Assembly: GCA_018623495.1 (NCBI GenBank)
Contig: JAAZVP010000009.1
Span: 1 to 60,023 of the forward strand
Source of the DNA: Halothiobacillus sp.
GTDB taxonomy: Bacteria > Pseudomonadota > Gammaproteobacteria > JAAZVP01
Reading direction: 5' to 3'
DNA: 60,023 nucleotides
Both the position numbers and the translations under genes were made by a program. Shown here in pieces: positions 43,584 through 57,682 of this stretch (position 1 is its first letter; each line of letters opens with the position of its first letter). The notes under the pieces are model-generated. The model was not told the DNA's origin. It worked only from the letters and a program-made list of their open reading frames with translations, and ran no database searches.

Positions 43584-46463
43584 ATGCCGGGTAGGCTGCG
43601 CGGCAATCGACAACCCGGTTTCCGGGGCCCGCCGTCGGCCGCGCTTGCCGGCTTCGCCGTCTTCCTCTTGCCCCTTGCCTCGATCGCCGTCGCCGCCCCC
43701 CTCCCTGACGTCACTCCCCTGCAGATGTTTCGCAACCATTGGCGCTGGTTCAGCGCGCTGCTGGTACTGATCGCGCTCCTGGCCCTGGCACTGGCGTGGG
43801 TGGGGCGGCTCAATCGGCGGGTGGTACGTTCGCGTGACGAGCTCGAGCACCGGGTGGCATCGCGCACCCGCGAGCTGGAGGCGCAGCGCGACTTCATCCG
43901 CAGCGTGGCCGATGCCGTTCCCGGTCCGTTGTTCCTGTTCGATGCCCAGGGCCGTTACCGCTTCCGCAACCGGTTCATGGAAGAGTACATGGGCTATGGC
44001 CCCGGGGCGATGGACGCGTGGCCACCCGAGGCCGCCGTGGCCGAGGCGGATCGGACCGCGGTGCGCCGGGCGATCGAGCGGGTCTTCGAGCAGGGGGCCG
44101 CCCAGGTGGAGGCCGGTCTGCTCGATGCCGATGGCGGTGAGCACGCGTTTCTCTTCAATGCCCAGCGCATCGAGCGGGACGGTGAGGCGCTGGTGCTGGG
44201 CATCGGCCAGGGCGTGGACGAACTGCGCACCGCGCGCGGGTCGCTGGAACGGGCCAACCGGGCGTTGCGGGTGCTCAGTGCCTCCAACCGCGCGCTCATC
44301 CATGCCTCGCGGGAAGAGCAGCTGCTCGACCGGGTCTGTCGCATCCTGGTGCAGGAGCGGGCCTATCGGCTCGCCTGGGTGGGGTTCGCCGAGCCGGCAC
44401 CGGAGTGTGCCATCCGGCCGGTGGCCCAGCGCGGTTTCGAGCAGGGCTTTCTCGAGACCCTGCCGCTGACCTGGTCACGGGACAGTGTCCGCGGCTGCCC
44501 CACCGGGCAGGCGATCCTCGAGGGTGGCCCGGTGATCATCCAGGACATCCCGGCCAAGCGGGGCCACCTGCCCTGGTGCGTGGAGGCCATGGAGCGGGGT
44601 TTCGCGTCGCTGATCGCCCTGCCGCTGGTGGGGCACGACGCGGGCGGGCAGCCCCTGGGGGCCCTGACCGTCTATGCCGGCGAGGCCAATGCCTTCGACG
44701 AGGACGAGCGGGCCCTGCTGGCCGAGCTGGCGGACGATCTCGCCTTCGGTATCCATCACCTGCGCCGGGAGGCCGAGCGCGAGGCCCACCTGGATCAGTT
44801 GCGCCAGGCGGGCGTGGTCTTCGACGCCACCGTCGAGGGAGTGCTGGTCACCGATGCCGAGGCCCGCATCCTGTCGGTGAACCAGGCCTTCACCGAGATC
44901 ACGGGCTTTACCGAGGAGGAGGTGGTGGGCGAGAACCCGCGGCTGCTCAAGTCCGGGCGCCAGGACGCGGCGTTCTATCGGCGCATGTGGTCGGCGATCG
45001 AGACCCACGGCAGCTGGCAGGGCGAGATCTGGAACCGGCGCAAGAATGGCGAGGTGTATCCGGAATGGGAGACCATCTCGGCCGTGCACGATGAGACCGG
45101 CGAGCTGACCCATTACGTGGCGGTCTTCTCCGACCTTACCGAGGTCAAGCGCTCGCGGGAGGAGGTGGATTTCCTCACCCACCACGACCCGCTGACCCGC
45201 CTGCCCAACCGGCTGTTGCTGCGCGAGCGTATCGGCCATGCCGTGGAGCGCGCCGCCCGCACGGGCCAGAGGGTGGCGGTGATCGCCGTGGACCTCGTCG
45301 ATTTCCGCCGGGCCAACGAGAGCCTGGGGCATGCCGTGGGCGATCGCATCCTGCAGAAGGTGGCCCGGCGGCTGGGGCAGACCGTGCGCGAGGACGACAC
45401 CGTGGGCCGGCTGGGGGCCGACGAGTTCGTGGTGCTGCTGGAGTCGGTGCGCGACCAGGCGGCCGTGGTCGCGGTGGTCCGCAAGCTGGCCGAGGCCGTG
45501 GAGGGCGTGATGCGGCTGGACGGCCAGGCGGTGGTGATGCGCGTGCACCAGGGGATCGCGCTCTACCCCGAGGACACGGGGGCGGCCGATGCCCTGATGC
45601 GCAACGCCGACAGCGCCCTGCGGCGGGCCAAGCAGGCGGATGATGCCTATGCCTTCTTCAACCCCGCCTTCACCGAGCAGGCAGTCGAGCGGCTCCGGCT
45701 CGAGACCGAGCTGCGGGTGGCGCTGGAGGCCGGGCAGCTGGAATTGTTCTACCAGCCGCAGCTCGATTGCCGGGGCGAGCGGCTGGTGGGGGCCGAGGCC
45801 CTGCTGCGCTGGCGCCACCCGGAGCGGGGCCTGGTCTCGCCTGCCGAGTTCATCCCGCTGGCCGAGCAGACCGGCCTGATCGTGCCCATGGGGGAGTGGG
45901 TGGTGGCCGAGGCCTGCCGCCAGGCCCTGGCATGGGTGGCGGCCGGCTACCGCCTGCCCGTGGTGGCCATCAACCTCTCGGCGCGACAGCTGGGTCGTTC
46001 CGACGTGGTGGAGCGGCTGCAGGGGATCGTCGACGAGGCGAACTGCGAGGACGCGCGGATCGAGTTCGAGATCACCGAGAGTGCCTTCATGGACGACGTC
46101 GACCGCGTGGAGACCAGGCTGGCCTGGTGGCGCGAGCGGGGCATCCGGGTGGCCGTCGACGATTTCGGCACCGGCTATTCCTCGCTCACCTACCTGCGCC
46201 GGCTGTCGGTGGACCGGCTCAAGATCGACCAGTCCTTCGTCCGCGGCATGCTCGAGCACGGCGAGAACCGGGCGATCGTCCGGGCGGTGGTCGCCATGGG
46301 CCACGGACTGGGACTGACCGTGCTGGCCGAGGGCGTGGAGACCGAGGCGCAGCGGGCCGCGCTGGAGGCCGAAGGTTGCGACGAGGTGCAGGGCTTTCTC
46401 TTCGACGAGCCAAGGCCGGCCGAGGCCTTCGCCCGGCGATGGCTGGGGGCATCGGTCGGTTGA
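43584..46463 (+). CDS. Membrane PAS-GAF-PAS-GGDEF(degenerate)-EAL protein
   Basis: A 959-residue protein. Two hydrophobic segments near residues 20-38 and 53-75 bracket a very short periplasmic part; PAS (about 105-215), GAF (about 235-395) and PAS (about 405-525) domains follow. The cyclase signature is GADEF (611-615), and the preceding metal-site region reads [15 protein letters not shown] instead of the usual DLDxFKxIND, so the GGDEF domain is probably inactive, though an RxxD (REDD) remains. The EAL domain looks complete (E738-L740, [37 protein letters not shown]), so a phosphodiesterase is most likely. Starts 2 bases after the LytTR gene, without a visible ribosome-binding site. Confidence 0.88.
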
Positions 46464-46553
46464 GCGGTCGAGTCGTCGCGGGGTTGCGTGGCCGAGTCGA
46501 GGCGGGGCGCGGCAGGCGGGACCTTGACGCAGCAGGATAACGCCGAAACCTGC

Positions 46554-46616
46554 CACTACCCACTACCCACTACCCACTACCCACTACCCACTACCCACTA
46601 CCCACTACCCACTACC
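46554..46616. repeat. Perfect heptanucleotide tandem repeat (CACTACC)9
   Basis: Nine exact, uninterrupted copies of CACTACC fill these 63 bases, between the convergent ends of the GGDEF-EAL gene and the deacetylase-family gene. The opposite strand reads GGTAGTG repeats. It is non-coding. Confidence 0.97.
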
Positions 46617-46634
46617 CGTCACGTCACCCGCGCT

Positions 46635-47759
46635 TCATCCCTTCAGACCGTGCAGGTCCCTCAGTGCGCCGACCAGCTCGCCCAGGTCGGCCTCGGCCTC
46701 GGGACCCGGGCCGATGGGGTCGAGGTGGTCCCGCTCGCCCAGCAGGGCGCGGACGGTGTTGCCCACGCCCGTGCCCAGGGCCTCGGCGTCGTAGCCGCCT
46801 TCCAGGGTGAAGACGATGCGCCCGTCGCAGAGTTCGTCGGCCATCCCGATGAGCTCGCGCGAGAGGCGGTCGAACCCGCCGAGGGTGAGCGCCTGGTGGG
46901 AGAGGGGGTCGCGCCAGTGGCCATCGTAGCCGGCCGAGACGATGATGAACTGCGGGTCGAAGCGATCCAGGGCCGGTGCCAGCACCCGCGTCGTCAATCC
47001 GGCCAGCGCGGTGTCACCCACCATCCGCGGCAGCGGGGCGTTGAGCACGCTGCCGCGGCCGGCGCCTTCGCCGGTGGCGTCGACGGGGCCGGAGGCCGGC
47101 GGGAAGAGGTTGCGCTCGTGGATGTCGGCGAAGAAGCAGGCCGGGTTGGCGCCCACCAGGGCCTGGGTGCCGTTGCCGTGGTGGATGTCGAAGTCCACGA
47201 TGGCCACCCGCTCGACGTCGGCCCGTTCCAGCAGGGTGGTGGCCGCCAGCGAGGCGTTGCCGAAGTAGCAGAATCCCATGGCGCGGTTCTGCTCGGCGTG
47301 GTGGCCGGGCGGGCGGACGAAGGCGAAGCCGTTGTCCAGCCGGCCGTCGGCGACCGCCAGGCACAGGTCGGTGAGCCCGCCCACGGCCCGGCAGGCCGCC
47401 TCCCAGGTGGCCGGGGTGTAGTAGTTGTCGCGGTTGTAGGGGTCGAGGTGGCCGCTGTCCCCCTGGCGGGAGAGCATTTCCAGCTCGTCCACGTGCCAGT
47501 CGCCGTGCAGGCGCTTGATCTCCGCGGCCGGCGCGATGCGTGCGGGGACCGGCTGCAGCCGCTCCAGCAGCCCGGTGGACCGGAGGTGGTCGTTGATGGC
47601 CCGCAGCCGGTAGGCGCCCTCGGGGTGCTCGGGGAAGTCGTGCTGCAGAAACACCGGGTGAAAGACGTAGCCGGTGCGGCGGTCGCCGGCCAGTGCCCGG
47701 CCGCCGGCGGTGGCGGCGGCCAGGGCGGCGGTGGTGGCGAGGAATTGACGACGGTTCAT
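46635..47759 (-). CDS. Tat-exported histone deacetylase/acetylpolyamine amidohydrolase family protein
   Basis: A 374-residue zinc hydrolase of the class II HDAC/AcuC superfamily. FVRPPGHHAE, VDFDIHHGNGTQ (metal Asp and His) and SAGYDGH (second metal Asp region) plus LEGGYD are the family signatures. The N-terminus from ATG 47759 is a twin-arginine signal peptide (NRRQFLATTAALAAATAGG), so the enzyme should act in the periplasm, where acetyl-lysine substrates are unexpected; an acetylpolyamine or other amide substrate is more plausible. The frame is open upstream, but only this start gives the signal. No clear operon partner. Confidence 0.85.
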   Translation of the reverse strand: MNRRQFLATTAALAAATAGGRALAGDRRTGYVFHPVFLQHDFPEHPEGAYRLRAINDHLRSTGLLERLQPVPARIAPAAEIKRLHGDWHVDELEMLSRQGDSGHLDPYNRDNYYTPATWEAACRAVGGLTDLCLAVADGRLDNGFAFVRPPGHHAEQNRAMGFCYFGNASLAATTLLERADVERVAIVDFDIHHGNGTQALVGANPACFFADIHERNLFPPASGPVDATGEGAGRGSVLNAPLPRMVGDTALAGLTTRVLAPALDRFDPQFIIVSAGYDGHWRDPLSHQALTLGGFDRLSRELIGMADELCDGRIVFTLEGGYDAEALGTGVGNTVRALLGERDHLDPIGPGPEAEADLGELVGALRDLHGLKG

Positions 47760-47886
47760 GGGTCGCTCCCGGGTGTCGACGGGTCGGCTTTTGCAGGGCG
47801 GCCGCAGGCCGCTCGCCCACGGCTCCGGGAGCCTCTCCATCGGCCCCTGTCGCTGAGCATAGCCTTGCCGGGCAGCAGGCAATAAA

Positions 47887-47908
47887 AAACCCGGCGGATG
47901 CCGGGTTT
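47887..47908 (-). terminator. Rho-independent terminator of the fcc operon
   Basis: AAACCCGGC and GCCGGGTTT form a 9-bp stem around a 4-base loop; on the minus strand TTTTTTATT follows. It is 27 bases after the stop of the dihaem cytochrome gene. Confidence 0.87.
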
Positions 47909-47934
47909 GCAGGGGGGGCGGTGCGGTGCGGCGG

Positions 47935-48654
47935 CTATTCGGAGCCCATGGCCGCGTAGTAGTCGGCGAGCGCCTCGATCTCGCCGTCGGTCAGTTGCCT
48001 GGCGAAGACGGACATGCCCTCGTTGAGGTCGTTGTCCCGCTGGCCGTTCTTGAAGTGGTTCATGGTGCGAATGAAGTACGCGCGATCCTGACCGGCCAGT
48101 GCCGGGGTCTCGTTGATGCCGCCCTGGCCGTCGCGCCCGTGGCAGGATGAGCAGGGGGTGATCAGCCGGCTGGGGTCGCCCGCGCGCACCAGCTCCTCGG
48201 CCGCCTGGGTCTGCCGGGCCTCCGGGTCGGCCGGGGGCAGGGGCAGGCTCTCGTAGTAGGCGGCCAGGTCGGCCATGTCCTGGCGGGTCAGGGGCTTGGC
48301 GATGTACTGCATCAGGCCCGAGCGGCGGGTGCCCTCGGAGCGCAGCCCGCTCTTGTAGTCGAGCATCACCTTGTAGGTGTACTCGGCCCGCTGGCCGCCC
48401 AGGTCGCTCCAGTTGCCGGACCAGGACTCGCCGGTCCCGCCGTGGCAGGAGGCGCACATCATCTCGGTGTTGAGCCTTTCGCCGCGCCCGGCGTCGCCGG
48501 CGGGCATCTCTGCGAGGGTGGTGCGCAGCTCGGCGGGGTTCCAGGGCTCGGGCTGGCTGCCCGCGCTCCCGTGGCCCGCGGCCAGGGCCGTGGTGACGCC
48601 GGCGACACCCAGGCCGGCAACGGCCATCGATGCGATCCGTGTTCTTTTCATCAT
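47935..48654 (-). CDS. Periplasmic dihaem cytochrome c (c4-like)
   Basis: A 239-residue protein with a signal peptide (to about residue 26) and two CxxCH haem-binding sites, CASCH at 67-71 and CSSCH at 168-172, in two homologous halves. This is the layout of cytochrome c4. It probably takes electrons from the sulfide dehydrogenase next to it and passes them to a terminal oxidase. Last gene of the five-gene unit; its start is 10 bases after the fccB stop. Methionines following each haem site (GLMQYIAK, EGMSVFAR) are candidate distal ligands. ATG 48651 is an alternative start one codon later. Confidence 0.9.
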   Translation of the reverse strand: MMKRTRIASMAVAGLGVAGVTTALAAGHGSAGSQPEPWNPAELRTTLAEMPAGDAGRGERLNTEMMCASCHGGTGESWSGNWSDLGGQRAEYTYKVMLDYKSGLRSEGTRRSGLMQYIAKPLTRQDMADLAAYYESLPLPPADPEARQTQAAEELVRAGDPSRLITPCSSCHGRDGQGGINETPALAGQDRAYFIRTMNHFKNGQRDNDLNEGMSVFARQLTDGEIEALADYYAAMGSE

Positions 48655-48663
48655 GGGCTTACC

Positions 48664-50010
48664 TCACGCAAAGGTGTCTTCGACGAAGGCGCGCATCCAG
48701 GATTCCTGGTAGAGCGCTTCCAGGCGGTTGGCCATGGGCGGCGCATCCAGCGGCGAGACCCCGCCAGAGCCCGGGGTGCTGACGATGCGGCCGTCGCGCA
48801 CACGGTAGACGGCAGCGATGGAGACGCCGTACTCGGTGTTGGCCCGGGAGAAGCAGGTGTTGGCGAACAGCGGCTCTTCCAGCGGTTCGTCGCGCAGCAT
48901 GTGCACGATCTGCGCGGCGGCGACCTTGGCCTGGCTGTTGGCGGCATAGCCGGACTTGGGCATGGCGTCGGCGATGCATGAGTCGCCGATGACGTGGATG
49001 CGCTTGTGGACCCTGGACTCGAAGGTGTTGCGGTCCACGTCGCACCAGCCCTGGGCGTTGGTCAGGCCCATCTTGAAGGCCAGCTTGCCGGCCTTCTGCG
49101 GCGGGATCACGTTGACCACGTCGCCCTGGATGCTGTCGAGGTTGGCGGTGTGCACGGTGTTGGTCTTGGGGTCCACGCCGGTGACCTTGCCGCCCTCGGT
49201 GCCCGGCACCCACTCGATGAAGCCGGAGTCGTGCTGGCGGACGTCGTCGGGCATCCCCTCCATGTGGGAAGCGGGGATGTTGAAGCCGTAGAGGCGGTTC
49301 CAGGCCAGCATGAAGGGCTGGTCCTTGGTAAAGCCTTCCTTGGGATCGAGGATCAGGATCTTGGCCCGCGGCTTGTGCGCCTTGAACCATTCCGCCAGCA
49401 GCGAGGCCCGCTCGTAGGGCGCCGGCGGGCAGCGGTAGGGGTTGGGTGGTGCGGCGATGACCACGGTGCCGTCTTCGGGCATGGCGTGGATCTGGCGGCG
49501 CAGCAGTTCGGTCTGCGGGCCGGCCTTCCAGGCGTGGGGAATGGTGGTCTCGGCTACCTCGGGGGTGAAACCGTCGATGGCCTCCCAGCGGTAGTCGATG
49601 CCCGGGGAGACGATCAGCCGGTCGTAGTCCAGGCGGGTGCCGCCGGCGGTGTCCACCCGGCGCTTCTCGGGGTCCACGCCGACCACCTCGTCGAAGACGA
49701 ACTCGATGCCGTACTTGTCCTTGAGGGCATCGTAGCCGATCACCAGGTCATCCATCGTGCAGTGGTCGGTCAGGACCTCGTTACTGCCGTAGCAACGCAC
49801 GTATTCCTTGTTGCGCTCGACGATGGTGACCCGGATGTTCTGGTCCGCCAGCTTGAGGTACTTGGCCGCGGTGGCACCGCCGGTGCCGCCGCCGATGACC
49901 ACCACGTGGGGTGCGGCGGCGCCGAAGGCCCGGCTGCCGAACAGGCCGCTGCCCAGGGCCGCACCGGCGCCGAGCAGCTTGATGAATTCGCGACGATTGA
50001 TCTCACTCAT
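48664..50010 (-). CDS. fccB: Flavocytochrome c sulfide dehydrogenase, flavoprotein subunit
   Basis: A 448-residue FAD protein that oxidises sulfide (or polysulfide) in the periplasm. A Tat signal (NRREFIKLLGAG) leads to a Rossmann fold (VVVIGGGTGGATAAKYL). C73 in VRCYGSNEV corresponds, after removal of about 31 signal residues, to the Cys that binds FAD covalently in Allochromatium FccB; C194 (PYRCPPAPYER) and probably C386 (NTCFS) are the redox pair. IHVIGDSCIADAMPKSG is the second FAD motif. The start overlaps the fccA stop by 8 bases. The neighbouring cytochromes and membrane proteins point to electron transfer out of the periplasmic dimer. Confidence 0.94.
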   Translation of the reverse strand: MSEINRREFIKLLGAGAALGSGLFGSRAFGAAAPHVVVIGGGTGGATAAKYLKLADQNIRVTIVERNKEYVRCYGSNEVLTDHCTMDDLVIGYDALKDKYGIEFVFDEVVGVDPEKRRVDTAGGTRLDYDRLIVSPGIDYRWEAIDGFTPEVAETTIPHAWKAGPQTELLRRQIHAMPEDGTVVIAAPPNPYRCPPAPYERASLLAEWFKAHKPRAKILILDPKEGFTKDQPFMLAWNRLYGFNIPASHMEGMPDDVRQHDSGFIEWVPGTEGGKVTGVDPKTNTVHTANLDSIQGDVVNVIPPQKAGKLAFKMGLTNAQGWCDVDRNTFESRVHKRIHVIGDSCIADAMPKSGYAANSQAKVAAAQIVHMLRDEPLEEPLFANTCFSRANTEYGVSIAAVYRVRDGRIVSTPGSGGVSPLDAPPMANRLEALYQESWMRAFVEDTFA

Positions 50011-50332
50011 TGTCGCCTCCGTCGGTCTGCTGGGCGTAGAACTCGGCCATCGCCTCGATCTCCTCGTCGGAGAAGGCGCGGGCCACGCGATCCATGATGG
50101 TGGCGGGGCGCGTGCCCTCGCGGAAGGCCTTCATGCCCTCGATGAAGTCCTGCTCGGGCATGCCCGCCAGCGGGGGCATGTACTCGTTTTCCAGGTGGCC
50201 GTAGGTGCCGTGGCAGGGAGCGCAGGCATTGGCCATCATCTCGCCGCTGATGCGGGACTCGGCTGTGGCCGTGCCGACGGCGCACAGCGATCCCGCGAGG
50301 ACGACGGAATGCAGCAGTAGTTTGCGGTTCAT
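50003..50332 (-). CDS. fccA: Flavocytochrome c sulfide dehydrogenase, monohaem cytochrome subunit
   Basis: A 109-residue exported cytochrome with a signal peptide (LLLHSVVLAGSLCAVGTATA) and one haem site CAPCH; a Met in PPLAGMPEQDF or nearby is the likely distal ligand. It resembles the small monohaem FccA of Chlorobium rather than the dihaem form of Allochromatium. ATG 50332 is preferred because GAGG lies 7 bases upstream; ATG 50338 would touch that site. The stop overlaps the fccB start, as expected for subunits made in equal amounts. It accepts electrons from the FAD of FccB. Confidence 0.88.
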   Translation of the reverse strand: MNRKLLLHSVVLAGSLCAVGTATAESRISGEMMANACAPCHGTYGHLENEYMPPLAGMPEQDFIEGMKAFREGTRPATIMDRVARAFSDEEIEAMAEFYAQQTDGGDNE

Positions 50333-50394
50333 AGACATTCCTCGAAACCGGTTGGGTTCGGGGCCGCCCGCCCGGGGGCGGCCCGTGGGATCGG

Positions 50395-51618
50395 TCACTG
50401 GGCCAGGACCCAGAACCCGGCCACGAAGTACTGGAGAATCCAGATGGCGATGCTCCAGACGGCCAGCTTGCCGAGGGTCTGGACCCCGCCGCTGGGCACG
50501 TAGACGCCCTTGGTCTGGCCGGCCTTCCAGGCCACGGTGAGCAGATACCCCAGGACCAGGCCGCCGACGATGATGAAGGTGGCGAAGAACATGATGGTGG
50601 AGTACCAGTCCATGTTGATCGTGTAGTCCATGAAGTTGTAGCCGTGGACGCCGTTGAGCGTGACGTAGCGCAGCATCTCGCGCGACAGGGCGATGACGAT
50701 GCCGGCCACGGTGGCGGCGATCATGGGGACGTAACCCCAGCTGTCCATCCGGCTCCGGGTCATGATGCCGATGGCGGCGAAGCCCAGCAGGGCCGCCAGG
50801 GCCATGAACGCCCAGATGGAGGTGGCGAAGCCGGCGGTCTTCTCGGGCAGGGTGAGCATCCATGCCACGCCCAGGAGCACGGTCACCACGCCGCCGACGT
50901 TCATCAGCTTCAGGCCCAGGTTGCCGGCCCAGTCGAGGTAGGCCTGGTCACTGTCCTCGCGCGCCATGAAGTAGCGGCGGTAGGCCACCAGCCAGGCACC
51001 GATCACCGGCGCGGCCAGGCTGATGAAGAAGGCATAGCGCCAGAAGTTGTAGGCGTGCATGCCGGTGCCGGAGGTGTCCAGCTGGCCGTTGGGCGCGTAC
51101 CACTCCTGCCATTGCTCGGGGTAGAGGGTCTGCACGGAGAGCACGTGCATGATCCAGCCGACGAACAGCAGCAGGGCCACGGAGACGATCAGCGACCAGG
51201 TGGACTTGGGCTTCTCGGTCTTCTCCCCGCTGTAGTTGCGGAAGTAGAAGAAGTACATGAACCAGTAGCCCACGATCAGGATGCCCACGAAGGCGATCAC
51301 CCACCAGGCCGAGAGCACGTTGGACGTGTACCAGAACGGGTCGTAGATGACCTGGGTGGTGAGCAGTGGCGCCACGCCGATCACGATCGCCACCGAGACG
51401 GCGATCTTGGAGACGTCCACCATGGCGTGGGCCAGGCGGTGCCAGTTGGTGTCGTTCTTGTAGGAACCCAGGATCGCGAGGGTCGCACCGCCCAGCATGA
51501 TCGCCACGGCGGCGATATGCAGGGCCCAGGTGGCGATGCCCACGATGAAGAAGACGATCGGGTGGGTGGGCACGCCCGCGGGATCGCGCAGGGCGTACGT
51601 CATCATTTCCGTTTCCAT
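50395..51618 (-). CDS. Polytopic membrane protein, partner of bd-like cytochrome
   Basis: A 407-residue inner-membrane protein with about ten transmembrane segments. I do not recognise it as a named family. Several segments contain His or Met in positions that could bind haem (for example H33 in the first segment WALHIAAVAIMLGG, and GWIMHVLSVQ). The overall design suggests the second subunit of a two-subunit haem membrane complex, in the way CydB accompanies CydA, although it may itself share the CydA-like fold. Its ATG overlaps the stop of the upstream bd-like gene (TAATG) and fccA follows 62 bases downstream, so all are one operon. Confidence 0.75.
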   Translation of the reverse strand: METEMMTYALRDPAGVPTHPIVFFIVGIATWALHIAAVAIMLGGATLAILGSYKNDTNWHRLAHAMVDVSKIAVSVAIVIGVAPLLTTQVIYDPFWYTSNVLSAWWVIAFVGILIVGYWFMYFFYFRNYSGEKTEKPKSTWSLIVSVALLLFVGWIMHVLSVQTLYPEQWQEWYAPNGQLDTSGTGMHAYNFWRYAFFISLAAPVIGAWLVAYRRYFMAREDSDQAYLDWAGNLGLKLMNVGGVVTVLLGVAWMLTLPEKTAGFATSIWAFMALAALLGFAAIGIMTRSRMDSWGYVPMIAATVAGIVIALSREMLRYVTLNGVHGYNFMDYTINMDWYSTIMFFATFIIVGGLVLGYLLTVAWKAGQTKGVYVPSGGVQTLGKLAVWSIAIWILQYFVAGFWVLAQ

Positions 51619-53066
51619 TACTTCACCTCCTGTTCGGAGTCGGCGGCGAAGACCAGCTTGTCCCCGGACTGGGCCAGCTGGCGTTGCTTTTCACGCTCTT
51701 GCGCCTTGGCCTCGGCGACCGCGGCCGGTCCGCCCTCGGAGAGCACCGCCAGGTACTCGGCCAGTGCCCCGGCCTCGTCGTCCTGCAGCGGGATGCGCGG
51801 CATGTAGAGCGTATTGCCGGTGGCCAACGCACCCTTGAGGTAGGTCTCGATGAGGGCCACGTCGGTGGTGCCGATGTAGTTCTTCAGCGGCCGGATACCG
51901 CTGTTGGAGAGGCTGTGGCAGTTCGAGCACATGGTCAGGGCCACGGCCTCGCCCGCATGCACCTGGTTGGTCTCGGAGACCTCGCGCAGGTTGTCCGGCA
52001 GGAGGGGCATGGTCTTGAGCATGCCGTGCTTCTCCAGCAGCGGGATCTCGGACTTGACCCCCATGCCGGGCACGTCGCGCGCGATCACCTGGTTGGAGTA
52101 GACGTACTGGCCGGCGACGTACGGCTTGCGGATGGACTCGCGCGCCGTCTCCTCGGGCCAGAGGCCGAAGACCAGGATCAGCACGGCCATGGTGCCGGCC
52201 AGGCCGGTGACCAGGATCCGCGGCTGGATCAGGGTGGCGATGAAGTAGGCGAGGATGGCGCCCATCACGCCCACCAGGGCCGGGCCGAAGTAGCCGGGCA
52301 GGCGGTTCTCCATCACCAGCTTGGCGGTCTCGGGGATGGTGCCGAGATACCACGGGTAGAACGCCAGGCCGACCAGCGTGGAGACGATACCGAGGATCGC
52401 CAGCTTGCGGGCCATTTCCTTCTTGAAGGCAGCGTCCTTGATGCCGGCCGCGACGATGCCGCCGACCACCGCGGTCATGGTGAACATGAAGGCGGTCCGC
52501 ATGGCCAGGTGGGCGAAGGTGTTCTCGCCGTAGAAGCCGTTGAGGTAGCCGCCGGTCTGGAAGAACTCCTCCTGCCCGGGCCACATCATGAACGACAGGA
52601 TGCCGAGGATGATGAGCATCGTGGTGTAGGAGGCCAGGCCGAATACCCAGGAGATGATCATGTGGGTGCGCTTGTCCACCTTGCCCACGAGGTAGACGAT
52701 CATGTAGACGCCGACCACCTCGATCACGAAGAAGACCCACTCGGTGGCCCACTTCCAGACGAAGGTGTGGATCAGCGCGGAAATCCCGCGTGGACTCGCC
52801 ACGGTGGTGGAGTACCAGATCCCTGGCCCGGTGATCGAGCCCAGCACGTAGGCAAAGACCAGCAGGAACAGGCCGTACTTCTTGACGTAGTCGAGAAGCT
52901 CTGGCCGGTCCTCGCGGTAGGCCTTGGTGGAAAGGTAGGTGAAGAAGAGGGCTGCACCGACGGAAGTGTGCGAGGCCAGGACGTGAATCGTGGCGATGAT
53001 GGCCACGACCCAGCCACTGCCCACTCCCGGTTCGTACCACGTGGGGTAGAGACCGATCAGCTCCAT
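51618..53066 (-). CDS. Cytochrome bd oxidase subunit I-like protein with C-terminal cytochrome c domain
   Basis: A 482-residue membrane protein. Residues about 15-305 hold eight or so transmembrane segments with a CydA-like pattern: His in segment 1 (H28 in ATIHVLASHTSVG), two Glu about one helix turn pair apart in segment 3 (E109, E116), and His in AHLAMRTAFMF (H187). I do not see the GRQPW quinol-loop motif of CydA. After the last segment a periplasmic domain has one haem c site, CSNCH at 380-384. It may therefore take electrons from a cytochrome c rather than quinol. Start ATG 53066. It leads the operon with the second membrane protein, fccA, fccB and a dihaem cytochrome. Membership in the bd family is inferred by eye. 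Confidence 0.75.
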   Translation of the reverse strand: MELIGLYPTWYEPGVGSGWVVAIIATIHVLASHTSVGAALFFTYLSTKAYREDRPELLDYVKKYGLFLLVFAYVLGSITGPGIWYSTTVASPRGISALIHTFVWKWATEWVFFVIEVVGVYMIVYLVGKVDKRTHMIISWVFGLASYTTMLIILGILSFMMWPGQEEFFQTGGYLNGFYGENTFAHLAMRTAFMFTMTAVVGGIVAAGIKDAAFKKEMARKLAILGIVSTLVGLAFYPWYLGTIPETAKLVMENRLPGYFGPALVGVMGAILAYFIATLIQPRILVTGLAGTMAVLILVFGLWPEETARESIRKPYVAGQYVYSNQVIARDVPGMGVKSEIPLLEKHGMLKTMPLLPDNLREVSETNQVHAGEAVALTMCSNCHSLSNSGIRPLKNYIGTTDVALIETYLKGALATGNTLYMPRIPLQDDEAGALAEYLAVLSEGGPAAVAEAKAQEREKQRQLAQSGDKLVFAADSEQEVK

Positions 53067-53147
53067 AGTGGCGACTCCCGAGTTCTTTTGAGTGGAATGT
53101 GCCTGACGCGCGAGGTCGGGTTCGGCCTCGGGCGCTGCGCGACATGC

Positions 53148-53195
53148 CATAAAAAGGTCTTATGACATGATTACGATGGTGAAACATGCTTCACC
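53148..53195. promoter_or_regulatory. Palindromes upstream of the bd-like/fcc operon
   Basis: An AT-richer patch holds CATAA(53148-53152)/TTATG(53160-53164) and GGTGAA(53178-53183)/TTCACC(53190-53195) with ACATGC between, giving a nearly perfect 18-bp palindrome. They lie 82 and 112 bases upstream of the first gene. They could be operators for a sulfide- or redox-responsive regulator; none is identified. Confidence 0.4.
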
Positions 53196-53300
53196 AGAAA
53201 TCAAGAACGAGTATAGGAAACGCCGCGCGCTCCCGAGGGTCCCTGCGTTCTTGGATATGCGTGGGCGGGGAAGGTGCCCACCGGGTCGCGGTCGGGGGCG

Positions 53301-53789
53301 TCAGCCGGGGGCGATGGCTTCCAGGGCGTGGTTGCGGATGGCCTGGATCATGGCGTGCAGGCCGTTGCTGCGGGTCGGCGAGAGATGGGAGGCGAGGCCG
53401 ATGCGGCCGATGAACTCGGGCGGGGAGACGAGGATCGCCTCGGGCGCGTGGTCGTCGTAGACACGCAGGACCAGGGCAATGAGCCCGGAGACGATGGCGG
53501 CATCCGAGGTGGCGCGGATCTGCAGGCGGCCGTCGTGCATCCGGGTGTGCAACCAGACCTGGGACTGGCAGCCGTGCAGGCGGTTGGCCTCGGTGCGGTG
53601 TTCCTCGGGGAAGGGGGGAAGCTTGCGCCCCAGGTCGACGATGTACTTGTAGCGCTCGGCCCAGTCGCCGAGGAACTCGAATTCCGCGGCGATGCGTTCC
53701 TGGGTCTCGACGATGGCAGGCGCCGGCTCGCGGTCCCGAAGGGCTTCGGGAACGAAGCCGGCGATGAAGTCCTGGCCCTCGATCTGCAT
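53301..53789 (-). CDS. sufE: SufE-family sulfur acceptor protein
   Basis: A 162-residue SufE/CsdE-type protein that accepts persulfide sulfur from a cysteine desulfurase for Fe-S cluster assembly. The sulfur-accepting Cys is in RLHGCQSQVW; FPEEHRTEANRLHGC and the end MIQAIRNHALEAI fit the family. The start is ATG 53789; the frame is open upstream into cbbQ but homology begins here. It lies 16 bases downstream of cbbQ, so it is probably the last gene of cbbL-cbbS-cbbQ-sufE. No desulfurase gene is in the window, and a link to RuBisCO is not obvious. Confidence 0.9.
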   Translation of the reverse strand: MQIEGQDFIAGFVPEALRDREPAPAIVETQERIAAEFEFLGDWAERYKYIVDLGRKLPPFPEEHRTEANRLHGCQSQVWLHTRMHDGRLQIRATSDAAIVSGLIALVLRVYDDHAPEAILVSPPEFIGRIGLASHLSPTRSNGLHAMIQAIRNHALEAIAPG

Positions 53790-53805
53790 GTGTCCGGACG
53801 CGCCC

Positions 53806-54612
53806 TCAGAAGTAGGTGTCGATGGCGGCATCCAGTGTATCACGCATGTCGGGATCGTCGGTGATCGGGCGCACCAGGGCCATGCGGCAGGCCGCCTTGG
53901 CGTCGATGCCCTTGGCGATCAGGTTGCCCGCGTAGACCAGCAGGCGGGTGGAGATGCCCTCGTCCAGGCCGTGGCCCTTGAGGTTGCGCGCGCGGTGGGC
54001 CACCGAGATCAGCTTGTCGGCCACGTCGCTGTCCACGCCGGTCTCGTGGGCGACGATCTCCTTCTCGGTGTCGCCGTCCGGGTAGTCGAAGTCCAGGGCC
54101 CCGAAGCGCTGCTTGGTGGACTGCTTGAGGTCCTTCATCAGGTTCTGGTAACCCGGGTTGTAGGAGATCACCAGGTGGAAGTCCGGGTGGGCCTCGACCA
54201 GCTCGTTCTTCTTCTCCAGCGGCAGGGCGCGGCGATGGTCGGTCAGGGGGTGGATGGCCACCATGGTGTCCTGGCGCGCCTCGACGATCTCGTCGAGATA
54301 GCAGATGGCGCCGATGCGGGCGGCCACGGTCAGCGGGCCGTCCTGCCAGCGGGTGCCCTGGGCGTCCAGGAGGTACCGGCCCACCAGGTCGGAGGCGGTC
54401 ATGTCCTCGTTGCAGGCCACGGTGATCAGCGGCCGGCCCAGCTTCCAGGCCATGTGCTCGACGAAGCGGGACTTGCCGCAGCCCGTGGGGCCCTTGAGCA
54501 TCACCGGCATGCGCGCACCAAAGGCGGCCTCGTAAAGCTCGACCTCGTCGCTTACCGGGCGGTAGTAGGGTTCTTCAGTGACGCGGTACTGGGATACGTC
54601 GATATCGCTCAT
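53806..54612 (-). CDS. cbbQ: CbbQ, AAA+ RuBisCO activase subunit
   Basis: A 268-residue MoxR-class AAA+ ATPase. Walker A is GPTGCGKS (41-48), Walker B is ICYLDEI (D107, E108), and SYNPGYQNL and TKQRF supply sensor and arginine-finger regions. With CbbO it remodels inhibited form I RuBisCO. It lies 137 bases downstream of cbbS, behind two hairpins, on the same strand, which is the form IAq arrangement. Cytoplasmic hexamer in studied relatives. CbbO is encoded elsewhere in the window (26618-28975). Confidence 0.96.
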   Translation of the reverse strand: MSDIDVSQYRVTEEPYYRPVSDEVELYEAAFGARMPVMLKGPTGCGKSRFVEHMAWKLGRPLITVACNEDMTASDLVGRYLLDAQGTRWQDGPLTVAARIGAICYLDEIVEARQDTMVAIHPLTDHRRALPLEKKNELVEAHPDFHLVISYNPGYQNLMKDLKQSTKQRFGALDFDYPDGDTEKEIVAHETGVDSDVADKLISVAHRARNLKGHGLDEGISTRLLVYAGNLIAKGIDAKAACRMALVRPITDDPDMRDTLDAAIDTYF

Positions 54613-54678
54613 CGCCGACCACCTCTGTCAACGTTGATGGTTCCGGGCACGCGGGGCCCGGATCGTTCGACTCTGCGG

Positions 54679-54740
54679 AAAGCGGACACGCGATCCGCTT
54701 TCGGCAAAGCCGGAGGCGGGTCCTCGCGGACCCGCTCCGG
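54679..54740 (-). other. Two hairpins in the cbbS-cbbQ spacer
   Basis: AAAGCGGA (54679-54686) pairs with TCCGCTTT (54694-54701). CCGGAG plus CGGGTCC (54710-54723, one bulged G) pairs with GGACCCG plus CTCCGG (54728-54740). No T run follows. The likely effect is to protect cbbLS mRNA or reduce read-through to cbbQ. Confidence 0.6.
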
Positions 54741-54749
54741 GGGATGGTC

Positions 54750-55106
54750 TCAGTCCATCTTGCCGCGGTAGATGACCATCGAGGTGCCCTGGGACTGGGC
54801 ATAGTTGTCGTAGCCGATCAGGCGCACGTGGTTGTCGGGATGCGCCTTGTGGCACGCTTCGGCCTCCTTCAGGATGGCGTCCACGTCGTCTTCGCCGAAC
54901 ATCGGCAGCTTCCACATGTACCAGTAGTCGCTCATGGCGTTTTCCGGCTCGGTGTGCTCGATGGCCGGGTTCCAGCCCTGGTCGACGATGTACTGGACCT
55001 GCTTGCGGACCTGGTCGTCGGTCATCTCCGGCAGGTAGGAGAAGGTCTCGAACTTCCGGCTGCGCGGATCGCTGAGACTGGACTTGTAGTCTTGCATTTC
55101 GCTCAT
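54750..55106 (-). CDS. cbbS: RuBisCO small subunit, form IA
   Basis: A 118-residue small subunit that joins CbbL in an L8S8 complex. [27 protein letters not shown] and YDNYAQSQG are family signatures. Near the N-terminus there is a six-residue insertion (SDPRSR) before KFETFSYLP compared with carboxysomal form IA small subunits; this is the mark described for the form IAq, non-carboxysomal type. It lies 74 bases after cbbL. The absence of carboxysome genes in the window agrees. Confidence 0.97.
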
Positions 55107-55180
55107 GGGTCTAATCCCCTAATTCAAGAGTTCGGTTGGAATCTGGGCGCGGCCCTCGCGGACCGCGCGGAAACCCGGCC

Positions 55181-56599
55181 TTACTTGTGGGCCTTGTCGA
55201 TCTTGTCGACGGTGTCGAACTCGAACTTGATTTCCTTCCAGGTCTCCATGGCGACCTTCAGCTCGGGGCTGTGCTTGGCAGCGGCCTGGAGGATTTCCTT
55301 GCCTTCCTTCTCCAGTACGCGGCCCTGGTTGCGAGCCTCGACACAGGCCTCGAGCGCCACGCGGTTGGCCGCCGCGCCGGCTGCGTTGCCCCAGGGGTGG
55401 CCCAGGGTGCCGCCGCCGAACTGCAGGACGGAGTCGTCGCCGAAGATGGAAACCAGTGCCGGCATGTGCCAGACGTGGATGCCACCGGAAGCCACCGGGA
55501 AGACACCGGGCATGGCGCCGAAGTCCTGGTCGAAGAAGATGCCGCGGTTGCGGTCTTCCTCGATGTAGGAGTCGCGCATGATGTCGATCCAGCCCAGGGT
55601 CGCCTCGCGGTCGCCTTCGAGCTTGCCGACAACGGTGCCGGAGTGCAGGTGGTCACCGCCGGACAGGCGCAGCATCTTGGCCAGTACACGGAAGTGGATG
55701 CCGTGGTGCGGGTTACGGTCGATCACGGCGTGCATGGCACGGTGGATGTGCAGCAGCATGCCGTTGTCGCGGCACCACTCGGCCAGACCGGTGTTGGCGG
55801 TGAAGCCGGCGGTCAGGTAGTCGTGCATGATGATCGGCGCGCCGATTTCCTTGGCGAACTCGGCCCGCTTGAACATCTCTTCCGGGGTCGGCGCGGTCAC
55901 GTTCAGGTAGGAACCCTTGCGCTCACCGGTCTCGGCCTCGGCCTTCTTGATGCCTTCCATGACGAACAGGAAGCGGTCACGCCAGCGCATGAAGGGCTGG
56001 GAGTTGACGTTCTCGTCGTCCTTGGCGAAGTCCAGGCCACCGCGCAGGACTTCGTACACGGCGCGGCCGTAGTTCTTGGCGGACAGGCCCAGCTTGGGCT
56101 TGATGGTGCAGCCCAGCATCGGACGGCCGTACTTGTTCATCTTGTCGCGCTCGACCTGGATGCCGTGGGGCGGGCCACCGCAGGTCATGACGTAGGCGAT
56201 CGGAACGCGCACGTCTTCCAGGCGCAGGGCACGCAGGGCCTTGAAGCCGAATACGTTGCCCACCAGGGAGGTCAGGATGTTGACGACAGAGCCTTCCTCG
56301 AACAGGTCGATGGGATAGGCGATGAAGGCATAGAACTCTTCGTCGGAGCCCGGGACGTCCTCGATCGCGTAGGCACGGCCCTTGTAGTAGTCCAGGTCGG
56401 TCAGCAGGTCGGTCCAGACGGTGGTCCAGGTGCCGGTGGAGGACTCGGCCGCTACCGCGGCAGCCACCTCTTCACGCGGTACGCCGGGCTGAGGGGTGAC
56501 CTTGAAGCACGCCAGGAAGTCGGTGTCCTTGGGCGTGTACTCCGGCATCCAATACGTCTCACGGTACTCTTTTACACCCGCGGAGTATTTCTTCGCCAT
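55181..56599 (-). CDS. cbbL: RuBisCO large subunit, form IA
   Basis: A 472-residue catalytic subunit that carboxylates ribulose-1,5-bisphosphate. Active-site residues are in place: [10 protein letters not shown] with K167, the carbamylated Lys K193 in FAKDDEN, loop 6 GTVVGKLEG with K326, and IHRAMHAV. The sequence is form I of the proteobacterial A type. The ATG at 56599 starts the family N-terminus [12 protein letters not shown]. It leads cbbL-cbbS-cbbQ-sufE and is divergent from cbbR, so its control by CbbR is expected. Codon use here is more biased than in neighbours, as for a highly expressed gene. Confidence 0.98.
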
Positions 56600-56758
56600 G
56601 GTGCATCTCCGATTGGTTGATGGATGGAATTCCTGGGCTGGCCGCCTCCCGGCGCGATACCCGGAATGGCAAGCGAGTCTAGCAGGCAGGGGTATAATTA
56701 CAATTCAATAATAGTGATTGATAACATCAGATAAGACTTATGCATACACGGGGGCTTC
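56600..56758. promoter_or_regulatory. cbbL-cbbR divergent control region
   Basis: An AT-rich island in the middle of this 159-base spacer contains the dyad ATAAG-A-CTTAT (56731-56741), ATTGATAA (56717-56724) and other LysR-type T-N11-A candidates. For cbbR, TATAAT at 56693-56698 is a good -10. For cbbL, TTGTAA (56703-56698) and TAGACT (56681-56676) on the minus strand are 16 bases apart and could be -35 and -10. CbbR binding here is expected from the family but not shown. Confidence 0.6.
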
Positions 56759-57682
56759 ATGAACGTCACGCTGCGCCAGCTCAAGGTCTTCGAGGCGGTG
56801 GCCCGTCACAGCAGTTTCACGCTTGCGGCCGAGGAGTTGCACCTCACCCAGCCGGCGGTCTCCATGCAGGTGCGCAGCCTGGAGGAGAGCGCCGGGATGG
56901 CGCTGTTCGAGAAGCTCGGGCGCAAGATCTATCTCACCGAGGCGGGGCGGGAGATGTTCACCTACGCCCGCTCCATCGCCCACCTGCTCGACGAGGCCGA
57001 GGAAGTGCTCGATTCCCTGCGCGGGGTCAAGAGCGGTGCCCTGTCGGTGTCGGTGGCGACCACCGCCAACTACTTCGCCACGCGAATCCTGGCCGGTTTC
57101 GCCGGGCGCTTCAGCGATGTCTCCTTCAGTCTCGACGTCACCAACCGCGAGACCCTGCTGCGCCAGCTCGACAACAACGAGCGTGACCTGGTGATCATGG
57201 GCGAGCCGCCCGGGGGCATCGACCTGGTGGCCGAGCCGTTCATGGAGAACCCGCTGGTGATGATCGCGCCGCCGGACCACCCGCTGGCCGCGGAGCGCGA
57301 GATCCCCATGGAGCGCTTCGCCGACGAGAGCTTCGTGGTCCGCGAGAAGGGGTCGGGGACGCGCGGGGCCATCGAACGGTTCTTCCAGGCCCGGGGCATG
57401 CAGCTGGTCACCGGCATGGAGCTCGGTTCCAACGAGGCGATCAAGCAGGCCGTGGCCGCGGGCCTGGGGTTGGGAATCGCCTCCATCCACACCCTCGAGC
57501 TGGAGCTGGAGACGGGCCGGCTGGCCCTGCTGGACGTGGCCGACTTCCCGATCCGGCGCAACTGGTACATCGTCCACCGCGAGGGCAAGCGCCTCTCGCC
57601 GGTGGCCCAGGCCTTCCGCCGCTTCGTCCTCGCCGAGGCGGAAGGGTACGTGGCCCTGCCGGCCGGGGTGCTGTCGGCGTGA
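56759..57682 (+). CDS. cbbR: LysR-family RuBisCO operon regulator CbbR
   Basis: A 307-residue LysR-type transcription factor: an N-terminal winged helix (RQLKVFEAVARHSSFTLAAEELHLTQPAVSMQVRSLE region, residues 5-42) and a two-lobed effector domain from about 90. Homologues activate cbb operons in response to metabolites such as ribulose bisphosphate, phosphoenolpyruvate or NADPH. Divergent position from cbbL supports the name. The start ATG 56759 gives the standard N-terminus MNVTLRQLKVFE. A terminator lies 63 bases after the stop, shared with the convergent SLAC1-family gene. Confidence 0.94.
   Translation: MNVTLRQLKVFEAVARHSSFTLAAEELHLTQPAVSMQVRSLEESAGMALFEKLGRKIYLTEAGREMFTYARSIAHLLDEAEEVLDSLRGVKSGALSVSVATTANYFATRILAGFAGRFSDVSFSLDVTNRETLLRQLDNNERDLVIMGEPPGGIDLVAEPFMENPLVMIAPPDHPLAAEREIPMERFADESFVVREKGSGTRGAIERFFQARGMQLVTGMELGSNEAIKQAVAAGLGLGIASIHTLELELETGRLALLDVADFPIRRNWYIVHREGKRLSPVAQAFRRFVLAEAEGYVALPAGVLSA

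Follow-up and report, generated by a model that had tools for sequence, protein, structure and literature searches.

A CydAA'-type membrane pair with a fused haem c encoded beside flavocytochrome c sulfide dehydrogenase in Halothiobacillus sp.: a candidate module for sulfide-linked respiration

Flavocytochrome c sulfide dehydrogenase (FccAB) has a physiological role that has been called unclear (PMC10892978), and a locus of Halothiobacillus sp. raises the question of which membrane partner could take up its electrons. In the window, the whole stretch of 60,023 nucleotides analysed here (contig JAAZVP010000009.1 from a genome of 2.46 Mb with a completeness of about 99%), fccA and fccB belong to a cassette of five minus-strand genes running from 53066 to 47935 in the order A-B-FccA-FccB-DH, where A and B are membrane proteins related to cytochrome bd oxidase and DH is a dihaem cytochrome c. 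The close spacing described in the first-pass annotation was found as such: A and B overlap by 1 bp (TAATG), B and FccA are 62 bp apart, FccA and FccB overlap by 8 bp, and 9 bp separate FccB from DH. We consider it fairly probable that the five genes constitute one respiratory module, in which an OR-C-like, cytochrome c-fed O2 reductase of the bd family would operate with a dedicated sulfide dehydrogenase.

51618..53066, minus strand: A, CydA-like membrane subunit with a C-terminal haem c domain, OR-C-like (Pfam, hhalign, AlphaFold, Foldseek)
50395..51618, minus strand: B, ten-helix CydA paralogue, CydA'-like (hhalign, AlphaFold, Foldseek)
50003..50332, minus strand: FccA, monohaem cytochrome c (CAPCH) with a signal-peptide-like N-terminus (best PDB match 1fcd_C, E=8.6e-16)
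48664..50010, minus strand: FccB, flavin adenine dinucleotide (FAD) flavoprotein of sulfide dehydrogenase with a twin-arginine translocation (TAT)-like signal, from the clade linked to A and B (Pfam, PDB match, trees)
47935..48654, minus strand: DH, dihaem c4-like cytochrome (CASCH, CSSCH; match to cytochrome c4 1etp_A, E=3.9e-20)

Protein A has 482 amino acids, eight transmembrane helices and a haem c domain with CSNCH and the axial Met M422; FccA and DH are the other proteins in which Pfam recognized cytochrome c domains. With Pfam Cyt_bd_oxida_I (PF01654), A scored 23.1 bits, below the cut-off of 26.2, and sequence searches of the PDB with A and B as single proteins found no relative, the kinship being visible only by profiles and folds. 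A profile of A built from 92 homologues aligns to canonical CydA from helix 1 as far as about helix 5 (hhalign, E=1e-5), and the top 19 Foldseek matches of its AlphaFold model (predicted local distance difference test, pLDDT, 87.6) are all bd-oxidase subunits, CydA chains first, with TM-scores of about 0.5 that denote a shared yet divergent fold. When run against the PDB, the profile of A was swamped by cytochrome c domains and that of B returned nothing. The proposal that 51618-53066 encodes a CydA-like protein with a fused haem c is therefore borne out by profile and structure prediction alike.

The roles of the E. coli CydA residues are established by bd structures, and two of their counterparts were placed in A by hhalign, with codon places computed from the gene start:

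52983..52985, minus strand: codon of A H28, counterpart of E. coli CydA H19, an active-site haem ligand (hhalign)
52119..52142, minus strand: A RESIRKPY, residues 309-316, counterpart of E. coli AEYGRQPW (hhalign of helix 8)

Within RESIRKPY, E310 aligns with E. coli E445 in a short helix 8 segment (E=0.003). As anticipated, the helix His and Glu are kept: H28 and E310 are invariant in the 92 sequences of A, together with E109, R190, E306, R309, R313, K314, P315 and CxxCH, and position 116 is always E or D, the acids of helix 3 being preserved. Position 186, which corresponds by number and neighbourhood to the E. coli b558 ligand H186, carries Q in 69 of the 92 sequences and H in 21, the helix register being uncertain there. 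No quinol-binding loop (Q-loop) is present in A, as helices 6 (212-243) and 7 (260-280) of the AlphaFold model are only about 16 residues apart. The earlier remark that a quinol-loop GRQPW motif is missing holds for the loop but not for GRQPW, which is a separate feature and has its conserved counterpart in RESIRKPY. Judged by sequence and model, A belongs to the cytochrome bd superfamily, with the four-helix core and both active-site haem ligand positions, at which haem binding is predicted; it is not a canonical bd quinol oxidase, since the Q-loop, the conserved b558 His and the CydB subunit are all missing.

The membrane partner B (407 amino acids) was modelled with a pLDDT of 94.2 as ten long helices, the number given for it at first sight. 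Its profile aligns with that of A (hhalign, Prob 95.5, E=1.5e-8) and with CydB at E=0.15, compared to E=0.049 for the control of CydA against CydB. Chance similarity between transmembrane segments was considered as an explanation and rejected, because the CydB comparisons of A, B and CydA gave E values of at least 0.039 against 1.5e-8. The best Foldseek match of B is a CydA chain (9r2g_A, E=3.1e-5), and B keeps H34, R194 and R313-E314-x-x-R317, while the helix 3 acids have no conserved counterpart in B. Comparison of 50395-51618 with both families hence supports kinship to CydA, seen through A, but not to CydB. On profile and model evidence, B is a second CydA paralogue and not a CydB, and A-B represents by sequence a CydAA'-type pair, two CydA paralogues encoded together.

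Relative to canonical CydAB (E. coli bd-I and M. smegmatis bd-II, 9r2g), A shares the helix core and the counterparts of H19, E445 and the helix 3 acids, but differs by having no Q-loop and no conserved b558 His, by its haem c domain, and by a partner that is a CydA paralogue instead of CydB. Closer parallels are offered by the OR-C and OR-N families, including the CydAA'-type of Nitrospirota and Nitrospinota, which like A-B have a CydA core lacking the quinol site and two CydA paralogues, with cytochrome c put forward as the donor. The discussion of OR-N concerns nitrite oxidizers, and A-B differs from OR-N by its fused haem c and fccAB neighbours. We take haem c to be the defining mark of OR-C, which A fits through CSNCH, the axial Met and the missing Q-loop. 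As regards whether such a complex was already known, the answer is divided. The bd superfamily has been described as including families with two active-site haems and no quinol site, for which cytochrome c is the proposed donor (PMC8509429, PMC13189123, PMC10839748), but none of them is tied to FccAB in the literature found. A 2021 review stated that all biochemically characterized bd enzymes were quinol oxidases and that one with another donor was still to be obtained (PMC8509429). A full-text literature search yielded no report of FccAB linked to a bd-like pair, though Murali et al. 2021, who defined the superfamily, may mention it. The superfamily and the idea of a cytochrome c donor are consequently known, and the FccAB-linked module is the new part, as far as the literature found goes.

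Linkage of the membrane pair to fccAB was surveyed from both sides. At least 570 relatives turned up in GTDB genomes, and the best 80 of them were examined, a sample that favours relatives near the window and biases the overall linked proportion upward; fccB lies near A-B in 41 of the 67 of these loci with enough flank, usually in the order A-B-fccA-fccB-c4. In loci of Guyparkeria, Halothiobacillaceae and Halothiobacillus, fccAB is located upstream and not downstream, so the linkage survives rearrangement. The tree of A contains one clade (Shimodaira-Hasegawa-like approximate likelihood ratio test, SH-aLRT, 98) in which linkage holds for 43 of 47 resolvable members, compared to 0 of 24 in the sister clade; of the four exceptions, three are Methylococcus loci and the fourth is on a contig that breaks off 477 bp upstream. 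The association is thus regular within its clade, so that the neighbourhood survey proposed at the outset speaks for it, and the five-gene arrangement, recurring in dozens of genomes, goes beyond chance. Shared descent among a handful of closely related species was dismissed as its cause, since the linkage spans Gamma- and Betaproteobacteria, survives changes of order and separates paralogues within one genome. In Thiomicrorhabdus heinhorstiae (L027, 3990-13444), two tandem copies of the cassette encode identical A proteins, and in another gammaproteobacterial genome (L118, L123, L124; G027 contig 10) a cydA-like gene is split by several stops and has probably decayed.

Among the same loci, A-B is found without fccAB in 26 of 67, as well as in the sister clade, some copies having only a monohaem c or c4-like protein. 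This would suit another explanation, in which A-B and fccAB are sulfide-response genes that share no more than their expression, A-B being a sulfide-resistant cytochrome c oxidase that draws on the general pool and has no dedicated contact with FccAB. The FccB side makes this improbable. FccB was found in 123 of 369 gammaproteobacterial genomes and A in nine of the 369, six of these beside fccB. In the FccB tree, 44 linked and 28 unlinked proteins separate completely (100/100), and a single linked clade is retained (SH-aLRT 100) when the unlinked set is enlarged to 49 by 21 mostly low-scoring proteins, picked to challenge the clade and taken from regions that on re-fetching contained neither A nor B. 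Even where a genome holds both kinds (L178, L140), the unlinked copies group with the unlinked ones, and most linked FccBs possess an insertion of about twelve or more residues near positions 245-258 of the window protein that is absent in the 28 unlinked ones, as would be expected of a dedicated partner. The insertion is possibly a docking element, and the dedicated clade supports, at the level of sequence, a functional coupling of FccAB with A-B.

The soluble partners are themselves recognizable enzymes and carriers. FccB has full Pfam matches to FCSD_central and FCSD-flav_bind (PF21706, PF09242) and aligns to A. vinosum FccB (1fcd_A) with E=2e-124, where C42, C161 and C337 are equivalent to C73, C194 and C386; it thereby shows the FAD domain, the redox disulfide C194/C386 and the C-terminal FCSD domain of flavocytochrome c sulfide dehydrogenases, along with C73 as the Cys of covalent 8-alpha-S-cysteinyl FAD. 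The A. vinosum FccAB (1fcd; also 5n1t) shares these cysteines and a homologous FccA, but the window FccA has one haem, and the linked FccBs form their own clade and are encoded with a membrane complex. Among the 44 linked FccBs, all keep the redox disulfide, and in 30 the covalent-FAD Cys is replaced, by Pro in 26 and His in four (motif RPYGS), which implies a non-covalent flavin in those proteins. DH shares the dihaem architecture of cytochrome c4, differing by its place in the cassette, and is likely a periplasmic shuttle. Elsewhere in the window's own genome (L180, 1036-2580), a remote FccB-like protein (FCSD_central, 85.7 bits) with a TAT-like, lipoprotein-like N-terminus lies beside a transposase-like frame.

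In the module as we picture it, FccAB would oxidize sulfide in the periplasm, with electrons leaving the flavin of FccB for the haem of FccA and then probably travelling via DH to the haem c domain that A carries. From there they would reach the two active-site haems in the CydA-like core, at the ligand positions H28 and E310, where O2 would most likely be reduced. B would act as a structural, possibly haem-bearing partner in an OR-C-like CydAA'-type heterodimer with no need for quinol. We infer this route, and with it O2 as acceptor, a physical complex of the partners and proton coupling. The joint function first suggested, with electrons from FccAB going to O2 or to another carrier, is backed in its coupling by the CydA likeness of A, the fccAB linkage and the dedicated FccB clade, but for the acceptor the sequence gives a preference only: O2 is the likelier one, given that the helix 3 acids and both ligand positions of the active-site haems are retained and the quinol site has been lost.

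The same features bear on the use of a different acceptor, such as NO, nitrite or a sulfur compound, to be reduced with FccAB electrons by a reused bd fold. A Pfam scan of the neighbours of relatives without fccAB, which occur in diverse bacteria, found no conserved neighbour, so context does not give an acceptor away. This alternative is nevertheless very unlikely, as the O2-reducing ligand set of the superfamily is retained and the cassette has no reductase genes for such acceptors. A general role of the fccAB-less copies in two-component sensing, an idea taken from Methylosinus and Agrobacterium plasmids, was discarded for want of a conserved neighbour. On the Methylosinus plasmid (L013, 9001-19250), an A-B-c set has a two-component system and a methanobactin cluster as neighbours.

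Other electron outlets were surveyed in 30 genomes with A-B. Four Sutterellaceae with the cassette (Sutterella, Duodenibacillus) have no match to COX1 (haem-copper oxidase), bc1-type cytochrome b or cytochrome c peroxidase, and A-B is the only cytochrome c-reoxidizing enzyme found in them, periplasmic reductases not having been searched for. The main rival among those weighed starts from these genomes: A-B could be a cytochrome c:quinone oxidoreductase that, driven by the proton-motive force, pushes FccAB electrons into the quinone pool, for reverse transport or to feed canonical CydAB. Having no bc1 cytochrome b but a canonical CydA, the Sutterellaceae would have the two joined by such a route, and a bd-like cluster of nitrite oxidizers has been proposed for reverse electron flow (PMC6606698). 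We find this reading rather unlikely, because A has no Q-loop, its b558 His is not conserved and its active-site haem ligand positions are invariant; moreover, the genomes tested outside Sutterellaceae have bc1, which can already perform such transfer, and most cassette genomes have haem-copper oxidases.

Several points also weigh against the proposed sulfide-fed O2 reductase. Its function is deduced from sequence and models, and the low-spin b558 site is not conserved, which leaves no obvious route by which haem c could supply the active site. The four Sutterellaceae have canonical CydA as well. In the genome that contains the window, electrons can leave cytochrome c in other ways, since a cbb3 oxidase, bc1 and a pair of cytochrome c peroxidases are encoded there too. 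The cassette is present in only six of the 123 FccB-bearing gammaproteobacterial genomes, and most FccAB therefore work without the A-B complex.

A reason for pairing FccAB with a bd-like enzyme is offered by the behaviour of oxidases toward sulfide: isolated E. coli bd oxidases are insensitive up to 58 uM, compared to a half-maximal inhibitory concentration of 1.1 uM for the haem-copper bo3 oxidase (PMC4815019). By analogy, A-B may share this resistance. A stronger form of the sulfide-fed reductase, which we advance tentatively and with less than even confidence, is a self-contained sulfide:O2 oxidoreductase, where the specialized FccAB docks via c-type cytochromes on a quinol-free CydAA'-type bd enzyme, resisting sulfide and using neither the quinone pool nor haem-copper oxidases. 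If true, it would be, as far as the literature found goes, the first shown cytochrome c-oxidizing member of the bd superfamily, and it would help to explain how sulfide oxidizers keep respiring when sulfide is high enough to poison haem-copper oxidases. The module would offer FccAB a physiological partner, and the presence of the cassette in gut Sutterellaceae, in which the survey revealed no further cytochrome c oxidase, points to respiration linked to sulfide there. The prediction is testable, as the cassette names candidates for donor, shuttle and oxidase in cultured organisms, for example Thioalkalivibrio sulfidiphilus, Guyparkeria hydrothermalis, Thiomonas bhubaneswarensis and Sutterella wadsworthensis.

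The cassette is bounded upstream by a SufE family gene (53301-53843), 234 bp from A, and at its end, as first noted, by a single terminator:

47887..47908, minus strand: terminator-like hairpin with a T tail, intrinsic type, after the last gene (DH)

The terminator scan gave three sites against 2.2 expected, so its position and not the number carries weight; a promoter scan returned nothing above chance, and no Rfam family was found in 46000-57000. Genes whose translations read as form I RuBisCO are found nearby, and directly past the terminator lies a gene for a histone-deacetylase-family protein with a TAT-like signal (46635-47759). Between this gene and a GGDEF/EAL-type gene, a perfect 7-bp tandem repeat of CCACTAC runs for 9.3 copies (46553-46617).

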